Assembly: GCA_025041195.1 (NCBI GenBank) | Contig: JAKCFM010000001.1 | Coordinates: forward strand, 1,116,001 to 1,180,000 | Reading direction: 5' to 3' | DNA: 64,000 bases | DNA from: Halobacteriales archaeon YIM A00013 | GTDB lineage: Archaea; Halobacteriota; Halobacteria; Halobacteriales; Haloarculaceae | Shown here: piece by piece, positions 20,305-26,545 of the stretch | Position numbering within the stretch: position 1 is the stretch's first letter | How the letters are laid out: each line of letters opens with the position of its first letter | Translations under genes and position numbers: made by a program | The notes under the pieces: model-generated | The model's input: only the letters and a program-made list of their open reading frames with translations | Databases searched by the model: none | Told to the model about the DNA's origin: nothing

Positions 20305-20574
20305 TCACCACGACGACAGTTCGGCAAACGCTTGATCGATCACACACTCAACAGCCGTCGCCACCGATCGGTCAGTTATTCGCGTTGTGTCAAGCGTTGC
20401 TTGCAGATCCAGTACGTCTTCGAGTCTAACACCAGGATGTTCTCGATAGATCGCCGTAAGCGACGCTCGTTGGATTGTCGAAGGAGACGGCTCTCCCGGC
20501 ACCGTAGCTAACGCACGGAGCGCACGAGTCCGAACCGCAGTCCGTCGATTACTGTTCGTGGCTCGAATGCTCAT
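20305..20574 (-). CDS. Hypothetical protein
   Basis: An 89-residue ORF, MSIRATNSNRRTAVRTRAL at the start. Codon and residue use (Asp, Val, Arg, Thr) resemble neighbours, and helices are predicted from LEDVLDLQATLDTT and ATAVECVIDQAFAELS. An extended frame goes up to 20682, but that part looks less protein-like. I recognise no family. It reads toward the chorismate mutase stop. Confidence 0.45.
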   Translation of the reverse strand: MSIRATNSNRRTAVRTRALRALATVPGEPSPSTIQRASLTAIYREHPGVRLEDVLDLQATLDTTRITDRSVATAVECVIDQAFAELSSW

Positions 20575-20682
20575 GAGTGATCGGCCTCGGACTGTCGGTC
20601 CATTCTGACGGCAGGAGGTGAGTCCCCGCCGACCGGTTGGTGTGACGACATCTTCCCAGTGACGACCTATATTACACATCAT

Positions 20683-21042: not shown

Positions 21043-21423
21043 TTACTCAGATAGCGAGTCGTGTTCATACTGCGGACCGCCACCCGCATCCGATCGTCGG
21101 CTGTCGGATTGACAGGCGGCGTGAACACCACTTGCAAGCTTAGAAAACGTCTGTTTGTCGACCATGAGCAGTCGCTCGACGGAGCGGCCACTGACAGTGC
21201 TGTCGTCCCGTTCGCTCTCGATGAATTCCGATCGATACTCTGGTGAGTGGAACACTCGATACAGATCCTTTCCGGAGTACGACTCGGAGCTCGCAGCCAT
21301 TGCCAGAATTGTGGTCCTCGCGACAGATTCGTATTCAATACCCCAGACCTCGCTGTCTGAGTGGAGGGCACTAATCCAGGCGTCGATGTCGTCGGCGTCA
21401 ATTGTTTTGCTCCAATTCGACAT
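21043..21423 (-). CDS. Hypothetical protein
   Basis: 126 residues, MSNWSKTIDADDIDAWISAL, an acidic helical protein with charge and codon use like haloarchaeal genes. It lies 109 bases downstream of the SMC-like ATPase gene on the same strand and could be its third partner, but the gap has its own AT-rich sequence. No family is recognised, and no catalytic or membrane motif is visible. Confidence 0.55.
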   Translation of the reverse strand: MSNWSKTIDADDIDAWISALHSDSEVWGIEYESVARTTILAMAASSESYSGKDLYRVFHSPEYRSEFIESERDDSTVSGRSVERLLMVDKQTFSKLASGVHAACQSDSRRSDAGGGPQYEHDSLSE

Positions 21424-21532: not shown

Positions 21533-24376
21533 TCAGTGATACGAGAGTGTCTCGACAACGCTCTGGGGCGAAGTGGGCCCAGAAAACGAGCCGTCCTCAA
21601 GCGCGTAAAACGTGCATTCGTTGAACGTCTCGCTGCATCTAGTGATGACCATGGGTTGTGAACTCAGAATGAACAGCTGGGTGTCACTGAACTGATTGGC
21701 ACAGACGGTTATCGCCCGTCGTCTGTGCACCGGGTCAAACTGTGCGAATGCGCCATCAAAAATGAGTGGTGCGTCGTGAGCTTCACTGAGCGCCATTCGG
21801 ATTGCGAGATACAACAGTGCGGCCGTGCAGTTACTCAGTGTCGTCGGCTCGAACGAACTGCCGCTCTCGTTGATGGCGAGAAAGCGAGGGATTGCCTCCG
21901 ATTCATCCACCGTGATACCGGCGAACTCGCCACCGGTCAGGCTGGAAAACAGGTCACTGCTTCGCTCAAGCAGGGGTCCTGCCGTTCGCTGGACGTACGA
22001 TTCGGCCAGTTCATCGAGAAACAGTGCTGCGAGCCGGGTTGTGGCGTACCGGTCCCCTTGAGCTCGCAGCTGTGATCGCCCCGCACGAATTGGAACTGCG
22101 GCTGCCTCAATGTGGCCCGCATCGCTGAGTGCCGAACATTTCCGTTCAAGCGTCCGCGCTCGATTGGCCCGCGTTTCGTTCGTTTCGATGCAGTGGTTCA
22201 ATCGGTCCGCAAGCTGTGATTGTCGCGCCGCCAGGGTTGCTTCGCTGTCGAACGCCGCTACCAACTGCTGAATGCGTTCAACGGGCGAGTTGTCAGCAAC
22301 TTCAGTTGTTTCGTCGAGGAGTTCCTGTACCTGCTGTGAATCAAAGAGCAATTCTTGCTTGGTAGCACCGGAAAGCTGCCTGGTGATTCGATCCCGACAA
22401 CGGTCTGCTCGCTTGAGCAGCGGTCGCATCGTCTGGACAGTTTTTGCACGGCGTTCAACACGATTGACACACTCAGCTATCGAATCCGACGGCGTGGGAA
22501 ACGATTCGTGCTGGTCCAGTAGCTCATTCACTGCCGCGCGTTTCGAATCCACCTCTTCGCGGCGGTCGACAACCACCGAAGCACGCTCGATGAGCGTGCT
22601 GGTTGCTGAAAGCGCTTCGAGGAGCTCTGGAGCCGCCTCGATAGGATCCGTGGGTGTGGTTTCGCGTATCCCTGCCTGGTGGAGGTCTTCACTGACGGTT
22701 TCGAGTGTCGATCGAAGCGTTGACCGACGACGGTCGAGCGCGTCCAATTGCTCGTCAAACGCGCGCACTCTGCGTTTACACGCTACGATACGGTCGTAGT
22801 TCTCAAGGACGGCATCGGGGGCTAACGTTTCCAGCGACAGATCAGCAACGAGTGATTCGAACGAATCCCTGGCCATCTCTCGCTCAGTTTCGCGCTCAGC
22901 CCGTTGTTCGCGCAAGGTTTCAATCTCGCTGCGTGTGGTTCGAATCGACGTCTCAAGCTGCACAACGGAGTCCATTGCAGATTCGATCCGATTGTTGATC
23001 CGATTGGCACACGTTCCGACCGCAAGGAGCCCCACAACCGTGAGGACGACGCCGACCATCGGATCGAGGATTGCGACGCCGAGGCTACCGATACTCAGCG
23101 CACCGAGTATCCCACCAATCGTAATAGCGTGCCCTCGTCGTGACTGCGTGTACGTTGCGGGTGGATTCGCGGTTGAACGTTCGGATTCGAGCTGCTGGCG
23201 TCGTCGTTCGGCCAACGCGAGCTCATGTGTGAGTTCAGAGAGCGCTGCGTTCGCCTCGACGTACGATGAAACGATCTGCTGGACGTCAGCGCGGGCGTAT
23301 GCGTCCGTCGTAATTGATCTGATGGCATCGAGATCAGTGTACCAGTCGTCGTTTACTGACGCTGCCGCCCCACGGAGCTGTGACTCTTCGCGTTCGAGCG
23401 CCACCTCCTGCGCGTCGATCGCCTCGTACTGCTCGCGCAACCGGGGCAGGCGGTGACAGTGGGCTCTGAGCGCGTTCGAATGGTTCGTGATGGAGTTGAC
23501 TGTCGGTGTTCCGTTCACGTGTGAAATCGCCGTCTGAAACGCTATTGTTGCGGATTCATACCGCTCGCGAGCCTGCGCAAGCCGGTCGTATCGCGCACGG
23601 ACCACTGGTACCGCCGCCAGTGGAAAGCCGTTGATCTGATCTGCATCGACTGCCGCAGTTTTGGCCGCAAGTTCGGTGAGCGTTGCTGCGTCCGCGTAGC
23701 ATTGGTGGATGATATCCAGGAGTTCCAATCGCTCAGATAGCTGCTCGATCGTGTCGTTGGTGGCCCGTTGGCGTTCCCGGAGGCGTTCGCGCTCGGTTAC
23801 CGTTGCCTCGTACCGGTCGACTCGCTCAGTGGCCTGCGTGCGCTGGTCAACACCCGCACGGATTCGGGAAACGGGATCTGCGAGTGAACTCCCCGCACGT
23901 CCATGTGTGCCACCAACCTCTGTGGCTTTTGCAGCAAGTGTGTCACGGATTTCGGAGACCGTTTCGACCGTCTCGTAGTGTTCACCGAGCAGCTGCGCCC
24001 CCAGATGCTCATTTTCGGACGCGGTGAGCGACGACGGTGTGATCGTGCACCACTTTCGCTGTCGCAGTGGCTCGACAGCAGGCCGTGACCCGTTTGCAGT
24101 GGTTTCCCCAATCGGTTCAATAAGTAGCGACGCGTCGCCGTCCAACGAACACCGAAACCGTCCAGATTCGGTTTCGATTCGCCAGCGCACGTTCGATTGG
24201 GCCTCGCTGGATAGGTCGGTTGACTGGTTGCCAACGAGCAGACCGAGCAGCTCCCGCAACGACGTTTTTCCAGCCCTCTGTGGAGCGCCCACGACGGTGA
24301 CCGATGGTGAGAGCGGGTCGAATGCTTCGTTTTCGAACGGACCAACCGCGTCGATCGAGAGTCCTTCAATCCGCAT
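21533..24376 (-). CDS. SMC/YhaN-like coiled-coil ATPase with mid-protein membrane hairpin
   Basis: A 947-residue protein with terminal ATPase halves separated by long coiled coil (about 170-410 and 460-800), as in Rad50/SbcC. Two adjacent hydrophobic segments at about residues 415-455 (around AITIGGILGALSIGSLG) sit mid-coil, as in the membrane-linked YhaN subfamily. The P-loop region reads VVGAPQRAGKT (28-38), not the canonical GxxxxGK spacing. The signature is LSNCTAALL (about 847-855) instead of LSxGT, and Walker B ends FDGAFAQFD (873-881) with Gly where the catalytic acid is usual. It overlaps its nuclease-like partner by 11 bases. The start MRIEGLSIDAVGPFE fits the family; the frame extends upstream only within the partner gene. 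Confidence 0.82.
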   Translation of the reverse strand: MRIEGLSIDAVGPFENEAFDPLSPSVTVVGAPQRAGKTSLRELLGLLVGNQSTDLSSEAQSNVRWRIETESGRFRCSLDGDASLLIEPIGETTANGSRPAVEPLRQRKWCTITPSSLTASENEHLGAQLLGEHYETVETVSEIRDTLAAKATEVGGTHGRAGSSLADPVSRIRAGVDQRTQATERVDRYEATVTERERLRERQRATNDTIEQLSERLELLDIIHQCYADAATLTELAAKTAAVDADQINGFPLAAVPVVRARYDRLAQARERYESATIAFQTAISHVNGTPTVNSITNHSNALRAHCHRLPRLREQYEAIDAQEVALEREESQLRGAAASVNDDWYTDLDAIRSITTDAYARADVQQIVSSYVEANAALSELTHELALAERRRQQLESERSTANPPATYTQSRRGHAITIGGILGALSIGSLGVAILDPMVGVVLTVVGLLAVGTCANRINNRIESAMDSVVQLETSIRTTRSEIETLREQRAERETEREMARDSFESLVADLSLETLAPDAVLENYDRIVACKRRVRAFDEQLDALDRRRSTLRSTLETVSEDLHQAGIRETTPTDPIEAAPELLEALSATSTLIERASVVVDRREEVDSKRAAVNELLDQHESFPTPSDSIAECVNRVERRAKTVQTMRPLLKRADRCRDRITRQLSGATKQELLFDSQQVQELLDETTEVADNSPVERIQQLVAAFDSEATLAARQSQLADRLNHCIETNETRANRARTLERKCSALSDAGHIEAAAVPIRAGRSQLRAQGDRYATTRLAALFLDELAESYVQRTAGPLLERSSDLFSSLTGGEFAGITVDESEAIPRFLAINESGSSFEPTTLSNCTAALLYLAIRMALSEAHDAPLIFDGAFAQFDPVHRRRAITVCANQFSDTQLFILSSQPMVITRCSETFNECTFYALEDGSFSGPTSPQSVVETLSYH

Positions 24377-25646
24377 CGATTCCTCGTTCAGCGAGCCGAT
24401 CGATTGCGAGCGCGAGCGCCTCGTCCGTGAGCCGATCGAGCGTTTGATCGGTGAGCGCGCATCCCTCGGCGGGAACGGTGTCGCGCGCACTCGCAGGACA
24501 GTCCTGAAAGCGCGCTCCTGTCGCCGCACGAAGTCGCGAACGCGCGTCCGTGCGCATGGTTTCGACGACACGTTCGAGTGCATCGACAACGGCACCTGAC
24601 GGATTCTCAGCAGTCCGGCGCGTCCGATCACGGAGACTATCGAGGACAACTGGCGTGGGATGTGGTTCGAGACGCGACCGAATTCGGTCGAATAACCAGT
24701 CGAGTCGCCGGCGAGTGAGCTGTGTCACGATCGGAGCGTGGCCAACCAGCTCGATACGAACGACCAAACCGGCTGGCGACCACGTACTCGCATCCTGAGT
24801 AACACCATCGGGGAGATACAGAGTGGGTCTGGGTGGGCTCTCCTGAAGCGATTTAATTGCCCGGAGCGCAGCAGAGACCACTGCTCCGAGCGACCGGACC
24901 GGCTCGTCTGTATGAGAGCCAACAGCCACCGAGACCGTGTGAAAGCTGATCGGTGCCGTCGGAATGAACGACACCGACGGCGATTGGTCCGTCAGCTCGA
25001 CGAGATAGCAGCCCCCAACGTGACGCGTATCGAATCGACGGGGCTGTGGCGAACCAGGAACCCCACCAGGAACGGATGGCCAATACCGAGGTCGGTGGGG
25101 GCCACCGCCAGCCCAGTAATCCATCCCAAGGGAGTCCGGAACGGTTTGGTGTGTCCGGCCTGGCGGTCGGTGAACCACGCCGATCGAGGGCTGTGGACGA
25201 TCCGACTCGGCCGTGAAAGCTGTAGCAGCAGGCCAGTCGCTGGCAGTTGATTGGCCCACCAGCTGCGGTGACGATTGCCGATCGGTCCCGAGTTCGAACG
25301 TCTCGACCGATTTCGCATCGAAACAGCTGACGGGGTCCGGCCACTGATTCGAGATCCGCGTAAACTCGGTGGCGTCGCCGCCAAGCATGTACACCGGGCA
25401 AACAGCGCTCGAAAGGATCTCCATCAACCGCTCGGTCAGCTCAACCGATCGATACTGCGTATCGAACACGTCGCCGGCGATCACGACACAATCGACCGAT
25501 TCCGTCCGGGCAATGGAGAGTATGCGCTCAACTGCCCCCAGTCCGCACCGACGGAACGGCCGATCCAACGCTCCATCCTTCGGCCGACCACATTCCAGTG
25601 GGCGACCAACGTGGAGATCGCCAGTGTGTACAAATCGAACTCCCAT
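24366..25646 (-). CDS. YhaO/Mre11-like metallophosphoesterase with altered metal motifs
   Basis: 426 residues, upstream partner of the SMC-like ATPase. The calcineurin-like motifs are HTGDLHVG (D10, H12), VIAGDVFD (D59), then YMLGGDATE where the family has GNHD, and VVHRPPG (H159). The last motif DYWAGGGPHRPR replaces GHxH with GGPH. So the first two metal motifs persist, but the catalytic His/Asn of motif III and one metal His of motif V are gone. The rest (190-426) is a basic-to-neutral capping region without known motifs. It could be an inactivated or re-purposed Mre11-like partner. The start ATG at 25646 gives the MGVRFVHTGDLH core. Confidence 0.8.
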   Translation of the reverse strand: MGVRFVHTGDLHVGRPLECGRPKDGALDRPFRRCGLGAVERILSIARTESVDCVVIAGDVFDTQYRSVELTERLMEILSSAVCPVYMLGGDATEFTRISNQWPDPVSCFDAKSVETFELGTDRQSSPQLVGQSTASDWPAATAFTAESDRPQPSIGVVHRPPGRTHQTVPDSLGMDYWAGGGPHRPRYWPSVPGGVPGSPQPRRFDTRHVGGCYLVELTDQSPSVSFIPTAPISFHTVSVAVGSHTDEPVRSLGAVVSAALRAIKSLQESPPRPTLYLPDGVTQDASTWSPAGLVVRIELVGHAPIVTQLTRRRLDWLFDRIRSRLEPHPTPVVLDSLRDRTRRTAENPSGAVVDALERVVETMRTDARSRLRAATGARFQDCPASARDTVPAEGCALTDQTLDRLTDEALALAIDRLAERGIDAD

Positions 25647-25719
25647 TACGCACTGCTAATAGTAAGGTACATATATAATTTTTTGAGATCACTTTAGAAA
25701 ATTTATTTCCAGTTTTGAT

Positions 25720-26346
25720 TTACAAAGGGGTCGATTCCGAATTGTTTCCGGTCGAAACCGGTGTTACGACCCCTGGATCGTCCGTTACAACGGTTGTTGC
25801 GCGCCCAGATTCGACGAGCCAGTCTCTATCGGTGTGGATATTGGACACGGAAACGAGACGATCGAACTGGCTCGCATCGAACAGCGTTGGATGGCCGACG
25901 GCACCGTTGTACAGTGGTGCAACGATTGAAGCGTCATCAGAGATATACGCTGACGTCAACCGCTCGATCGTTGCAGACTGAACGTTTGCAAACTCTCCTG
26001 GGGAAACGACAGCCGCGTCCCATCCCCGGTTCGTTCCAACCACTGCGCCACAGTTGACGGCAGAATTGGTTTCGTCGATGCCACCAGAGGCGTCGTGCAC
26101 AAACGTGACGTCAAGTCCAGCAAGCGAGCGTCTGACGGCGGTTTCGTGACCACCGATGACGACGATGACCTCCGTGAGCAACGATGTCAACTGCTCAACC
26201 GTGCGCCGGACGGCGACAGTGCCGTTGACATCGGCAAGCACTGGTGTGTTTTCACGCGATTCATTGTGCGATGAACACGCCAGCAGAATCCCGCCAATCC
26301 GGAGCCGGTCATCGATCCGCTCTGGCTGCCGCCTGGTGGACGTCAT
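25720..26346 (-). CDS. MobA/MocA-like nucleotidyltransferase-fold protein, degenerate
   Basis: 208 residues with the layout of a molybdopterin cytidylyl/guanylyltransferase: an N-terminal ILLACSS strand where the GxGxSxRxG loop should be, VIVVIGGHETAVRRSL, and the GAVGHPTLFDASQFDRL motif of the C-terminal half. The nucleotide-binding RMGxxK, the middle metal Asp (here VVSPGEF) and the terminal DIDTPxD motif (here VTPVSTG) are not present. It may be a non-catalytic relative. It follows the nuclease pair on the same strand after a 73-base AT-rich gap. The ATG at 26346 follows a short in-frame MCSR extension. Confidence 0.65.
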   Translation of the reverse strand: MTSTRRQPERIDDRLRIGGILLACSSHNESRENTPVLADVNGTVAVRRTVEQLTSLLTEVIVVIGGHETAVRRSLAGLDVTFVHDASGGIDETNSAVNCGAVVGTNRGWDAAVVSPGEFANVQSATIERLTSAYISDDASIVAPLYNGAVGHPTLFDASQFDRLVSVSNIHTDRDWLVESGRATTVVTDDPGVVTPVSTGNNSESTPL

Positions 26347-26545
26347 CCGGCTACACATCGGTCGTCAGGGCCACGTTCGTTCGACCACGGATAGTGCCCC
26401 TCGATTGATTCCGACACGGCGACGACTGCACCATCATCTGTACCATACGAGGTGTTGACGGCCAACACCGTAAATTGTTTCTGTAGATGTAGTGAACAAA
26501 TGGAAGACCTGGAGATCCCCCATCACGAGTGGGGGAGCTGTCGAT

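Follow-up and report, generated by a model that had tools for sequence, protein, structure and literature searches.

The described systems closest to the genes studied here are the bacterial YhaO/YhaN pairs, in which the gene of a phosphoesterase precedes and overlaps that of a coiled-coil ABC-type ATPase with a hydrophobic mid-segment. We analysed a chromosomal stretch of 64,000 nucleotides from Halobacteriales archaeon YIM A00013 (G000:C1:1116001-1180000, hereafter the window), an organism of the genus of Actinarchaeum halophilum YIM 93972, and found in it a gene pair that shares all of these traits and aligns with bacterial YhaO/YhaN over the full length. It differs from them in lacking the catalytic His, the second-metal His, the second Walker B acid, the signature and the H-loop His. 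Very probably, the two genes encode a pair of pseudo-enzymes kept under selection.

Two further groups can be compared with the pair. Intact haloarchaeal pairs (on contig C3 of the same host, at the loci L050-L057 and on a Natrinema zhouii plasmid) are its closest relatives by tree and have the same gene order, but they carry intact motifs and mostly defence-gene neighbours, whereas the window pair has ordinary chromosomal ones. Mre11-Rad50/SbcCD complexes share the folds of both subunits and the layout of the metal site; the window pair, in contrast, scores far under the NCBIfam cut-offs and has lost catalytic residues. A functional analogy is offered by the B-subunits of eukaryotic DNA polymerases. 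These relatives of archaeal DP1 are inactivated Mre11-like phosphoesterases retained as scaffolds (PMC4996933). No oligonucleotide/oligosaccharide-binding (OB) fold or polymerase partner was seen with the window pair, whose inactivation would be a separate event.

Family and predicted folds

As the earlier sequence-only reading of this DNA had described, the locus holds two long open reading frames (ORFs), a nuclease and an ATPase whose long coiled coils are accompanied by a hydrophobic segment in the middle of the protein, the latter being a trait of the YhaN family. The genes overlap by 11 nucleotides (Table 1). The mechanically called ATPase ORF has 1038 amino acids and opens at TTG 24649 within the nuclease gene. 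Since the part alignable with every homologue begins at ATG 24376, this codon is very likely the true start.

The nuclease matches Pfam Metallophos (E 1.5e-6) and, weakly, SbcD/Mre11 models. Its predicted model (mean predicted local distance difference test score, pLDDT, of 73, with low confidence at residues 183-198) matches Mre11/SbcD structures with probability 1.00. It is not the canonical Mre11: against the haloarchaeal Mre11 model NF041030 it reaches 14.6 bits, where the cut-off is 550, and the canonical Mre11 of the host genome is a separate chromosomal gene (G000:C1:1826012). The Pfam matches of the ATPase to SMC_N, SbcC_Walker_B and AAA_23 were all under cut-offs, and so was that to the YhaN-type AAA_27 (PF13514; 12.8 bits against a cut-off of 22), which the intact C3 ATPase passes with 38.1 bits. 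A sequence-profile search for a solved structure matching the ATPase returned none; its predicted model (mean 63.7 overall, head domain fairly well predicted) matches Rad50/SMC. Judged by these comparisons together with the gene order and the trees, the pair is a true YhaO/YhaN-like nuclease-ATPase pair of the Mre11-Rad50 superfamily.

Altered active sites in both proteins

We aligned the motifs with those of nine intact homologues from haloarchaea and of 9-16 from bacteria. The haloarchaeal proteins were canonical at every aligned position, and the bacterial YhaO/YhaN-type homologues checked were canonical at the altered ones.

In the nuclease, motif I (DxH; DLH at 10) and motif II (GDxxD; GDVFD at 58) are kept, as had been noted before, and so is the motif IV His; the kept residues are D10, H12, D59, H159 and H184. 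In motif III, the family GNHD aligns with G-D-A-T in the window and G-D-S-P in Actinarchaeum. The alteration previously given as GGDA for GNHD is thus real but was placed one residue out of register, the true alignment being G-D-[A/S]-[T/P]. Here Asn is replaced by Asp (D91), which may retain metal binding, and the His is lost (A92). In motif V, GHIH has become GGPH, just as reported, with the first His gone (G182) and the last retained. Active Mre11/SbcD enzymes have GNH[DE] with the catalytic His and both His residues of GHxH; the window nuclease has G-D-A-T and GGPH in their place. By the established site in the Pyrococcus furiosus Mre11 structure, D10, H12, D59 and H184 are the first-metal ligands, and all four survive, while the losses are the catalytic His (H85) and one second-metal ligand (H206). 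The H85S variant of P. furiosus Mre11 has no exo- or endonuclease activity (PMC8007570, PMC8824468). The absence of the catalytic His strongly suggests that the window protein has lost nucleolytic activity.

In the ATPase, the P-loop APQRAGKT at 31 fits the Walker A pattern [AG]x4GK[ST] but not the stricter Gx4GK[ST]: the first Gly is Ala, and the Q and R are also found in intact haloarchaeal relatives. Walker B keeps the Mg-binding Asp (D874) and has lost the next acid (D875G; LDD in the intact family), and the signature reads LSNCTAALL against LSRATAEQL in the intact family. Two further changes, absent from the sequence-only reading, concern the H-loop (TCHP to SSQP, H907Q) and the D-loop (NFDPNH to QFDPVH). 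An active Rad50/YhaN ATPase is marked by an acid that follows the Walker B Asp, a His in the H-loop and the family signature, none of which is present. From these residues, ATP hydrolysis looks lost and ATP binding possibly retained.

The earlier statement that all motifs are off consensus was therefore too strong. Several are altered, including the P-loop, the catalytic acid of Walker B and the signature (for which the family reference is LSRATAEQL, not LSGGQ), but the general Walker A pattern is retained, as are ATP-binding residues and the first metal site. No conventional replacement motif was found at a plausible position elsewhere in the nuclease or the ATPase. The new membrane role proposed in the earlier reading is not supported: intact haloarchaeal homologues and several YhaN proteins of bacteria already have the hydrophobic hairpin, which is therefore inherited and no novelty of the window pair.

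One altered lineage under constraint

In both trees the window and Actinarchaeum pairs join and are sister to the L056/L057 type within the haloarchaeal clade (support 99/97 and 91/88). Both partners were altered on one long shared stem and then constrained, in line with the earlier view that they changed together. The shared stems have lengths of 1.75 and 2.8 changes per site; no other inner branch of the haloarchaeal clade exceeds 0.6. Long-branch warnings in the trees concerned mainly the bacterial outgroup.

A. halophilum carries the orthologous pair at the syntenic place, with 73% identity for the nuclease and 69% for the ATPase, and keeps the key substitutions. Between the two species, the ratio of nonsynonymous to synonymous substitution rates (dN/dS) is 0.32 for the ATPase and 0.30 for the nuclease. 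There are zero stops, where a mean of ~10 and ~4 would be expected without selection at half of the observed divergence. The signature-to-H-loop block of the ATPase is 86% identical against 67% elsewhere, a level reached by 7 of 882 alignment windows, and the motif V stretch of the nuclease is 97% identical against 71% elsewhere (2 of 396). Since these are among the most conserved stretches, the altered sites appear to be constrained.

The intact frames, the dN/dS of about 0.3, the conserved promoter region and the highly conserved altered blocks together speak decisively against decay. As judged from this comparison, the pair is retained under selection. Random decay had already been doubted in the sequence-only reading, and the altered form is indeed not confined to one relaxed genome, though intact homologues exist.

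The pair is absent from five of the seven genomes of the genus and from almost the entire family and order. At the corresponding place, a MoxR-type ATPase gene is found in two congeners (G003 and G004), and a third (G005) has neither the pair nor MoxR. The possibility that these three hold highly diverged copies of the pair was rejected, as the syntenic interval of 4-4.6 kb contains other genes: the MoxR-type ATPase (in two), a gene for a 126-amino-acid protein and an arylsulfotransferase-like gene. A simple link of the pair to spore or hypha formation in the lineage (PMC10067837, which makes no mention of Mre11 or Rad50) was likewise rejected because of the five genomes without it. Additionally, G002 and G006 match at identical contig coordinates, and G006, listed with 9% contamination, may contain G002 sequence.

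Intact relatives among defence genes

No viral relatives of the pair were found in one viral scan, and its plasmid relatives are distant only. One of the nine intact haloarchaeal pairs lies on the host's own 256-kb plasmid-like contig C3; the window pair is 23-34% identical to it. Intact pairs have a scattered distribution, with most of them sitting among defence-type genes. The C3 pair adjoins type I CRISPR genes (assigned by reading the sequence), L050 a type IIG restriction enzyme and an Argonaute-like gene, L051 DruE-like and TmtA-like genes, and L052 and L056 UvrD/GajB-like helicases. Given such neighbours, it is plausible that the window pair stems from a defence system.

The intact pairs (L011 6667-10872; L050-L057) are, in their own right, a candidate undescribed defence module. 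L056 (4378-15499) and L057 (2268-13385) share a cassette of the pair, an unassigned 692-amino-acid protein, a UvrD-type helicase and an AAA protein. Their ATPases are 90% identical in genomes of different families, which suggests recent transfer. A. halophilum has a further, more distant pair (L072, G001:C2 ~459439) with intact GNHD, GHIH and GPNATGKT.

Features and genes around the pair

Table 1. The gene pair and adjoining features, with positions counted within the window
Feature	Position	Strand	Basis or remark
Mre11/SbcD/YhaO-like phosphoesterase, 426 amino acids	24366..25646	-	ORF, Pfam, alignments, predicted fold
YhaN/Rad50-like coiled-coil ATPase, 947 amino acids, from ATG 24376	21533..24376	-	motifs APQRAGKT, LSNCTAALL, IFDGAFAQFDPVH, SSQP
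Hydrophobic (hairpin-like) ATPase segment, ~residues 415-455	23011..23131	-	peak hydropathy 2.31
AT-rich promoter-like intergenic region, AAAAAATTATATATG ~25 nucleotides before the nuclease start	25647..25719	-	comparison with A. halophilum
126-amino-acid protein of unassigned family, directly downstream of the pair	21043..21423	-	synteny across the genus
MocA/MobA-like nucleotidyltransferase, 212 amino acids, eroded	25720..26358	-	possible third member

The window pair lies between the MocA-like gene and the 126-amino-acid gene. The intergenic stretch upstream of the nuclease may serve as a promoter; it contains the TATA-like AAAAAATTATATATG and shows strong conservation in A. halophilum. Its AT-richness and conservation suggest that the pair has its own transcript, probably a leaderless one. 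The 126-amino-acid protein has no Pfam match; it is 90% identical in A. halophilum and 53-56% identical in three other congeners, at the same place. As these congeners keep it without the pair, it is probably not part of the pair.

The MocA-like protein has lost both of its hallmark motifs. The nucleotide-binding loop LLAAGxGTRFxEGNKLL has become LLACSSHNESRENTPVL and the GDMP motif GLGDMPF has become SPGEFAN, while both are intact in the syntenic orthologues of G003, G004 and G005. The score of the MocA model drops from 130 to 48 bits in the eroded protein, and the match to the N-terminal loop is lost. Identity to the syntenic orthologues is 33-36%, against ~65-75% for most neighbours; the eroded form is shared with A. 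halophilum (76% identity). A second MocA-like gene is found on contig C2, close to a molybdenum hydroxylase. That the erosion simply followed a loss of such hydroxylases is not clear-cut: none is present in two congeners with an intact MocA-like gene, and one is present in each species with the eroded gene. Nearby, a 125-amino-acid ORF (orf125, 20305-20682 on the minus strand) is also poorly conserved against the congeners (36-42%) relative to its neighbours.

Discussion

We propose that, on the lineage to the window species and A. halophilum, a YhaO/YhaN-like pair turned into a complex that has lost the ability to cut DNA. This complex would bind ATP but hardly hydrolyse it, with the head fold, the GKT and the Walker B Asp persisting. 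Its ATPase heads might engage in a long-lived ATP-bound state, or be constitutively apo, and the hydrophobic tip of the coiled coils would provide contact with the membrane or with a partner. The phosphoesterase, keeping one metal site and its scaffold surface, could hold DNA ends or a ligand uncleaved, and the complex would act as a membrane-linked tether, sensor or regulator. A comparable mode of action is known for MRN, which activates ATM through ATP binding and needs neither hydrolysis nor nuclease activity for it (PMC3642328).

Taken as a whole, the picture of a catalytically dead, probably ATP-binding pair that works as a membrane-linked scaffold or switch seems to us somewhat favoured. 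The membrane-linked scaffold or sensor role in itself is a tentative suggestion. It is rather doubtful that chromosomal domestication gave a defence-type pair a new role as a catalytically dead, ATP-gated and membrane-linked complex, with the likewise inactivated MocA-like transferase perhaps taking part.

Several observations weigh against the proposal. Because the first P-loop Gly is Ala, ATP binding could be gone as well. Motif III drifts between the two species (54% identity), the conservation of the ATPase Walker A is average, and the dN/dS of the pair indicates weaker constraint than at most neighbours (0.05-0.15), resembling that of the adjacent MocA-like gene (0.26). Since the altered form occurs in two species only, its conservation amounts to one pairwise comparison. 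Overall, 55-57% of the positions invariant in the intact family set are lost, so the catalytic residues were not singled out and the constraint on the whole proteins has changed.

It is conceivable that the nuclease has not died but changed, the four surviving first-metal ligands, H159, the Asp that replaces the motif III Asn and the loop GGGPHRPRYWPS.PGGVPGSPQPRRFD acting together on a different substrate while the ATPase serves as a slow switch. The four first-metal ligands are kept in both species, and the loop around motif V is strictly conserved between them and unlike that of the family. However, the His required for Mre11 hydrolysis is lost, motif III is the part that drifts, and the predicted model is of low confidence right at the motif V loop. 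Phosphoesterases of the Mre11 superfamily generally use two metals, which also makes new catalysis unlikely. At the other extreme, the pair might not be needed at all and be decaying slowly, its frames open by chance. This would account for the long stem with its many lost invariant positions and for the erosion of the neighbouring MocA-like gene; the lack of stops in either species, the dN/dS values, the concentration of conservation at the altered sites and the conserved upstream region render it very improbable.

The two remaining explanations give the pair partners. The dead proteins could form mixed complexes with the plasmid-borne intact pair or canonical Mre11-Rad50 and restrain either, and the host does have an intact pair of the same family on C3 and a canonical Mre11 on its chromosome. 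In Haloferax volcanii, Mre11-Rad50 itself restrains recombination (PMC2700283), and end-binding is therefore a useful handle in itself. We nevertheless give such a dominant-negative regulator little credence: A. halophilum keeps the dead pair, yet in its genome (94% complete) no intact copy of the family was found, only the more distant pair, and the identity of the window pair to the intact one is low for mixed complexes. The eroded MocA-like protein, for its part, could form a three-protein unit with the pair, for instance as a nucleotide- or partner-binding subunit. Its gene adjoins the pair on the same strand, is eroded in the same two species while the orthologues of three congeners are intact, and is an outlier in identity with a dN/dS that points to constraint. 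But the pair is preceded by a conserved upstream region of its own, orf125 is poorly conserved too, and the second MocA-like gene on C2 could simply have freed the window copy, so that a unit of three also appears improbable.

If the pair is indeed a retained pseudo-enzyme complex, it would represent a natural separation-of-function mutant in which tethering or sensing is split from cutting in a nuclease-ATPase complex. It would also parallel, within the archaea, the phosphoesterase subunits that were inactivated in eukaryotic DNA polymerases, and it would show defence-type genes put to another use.

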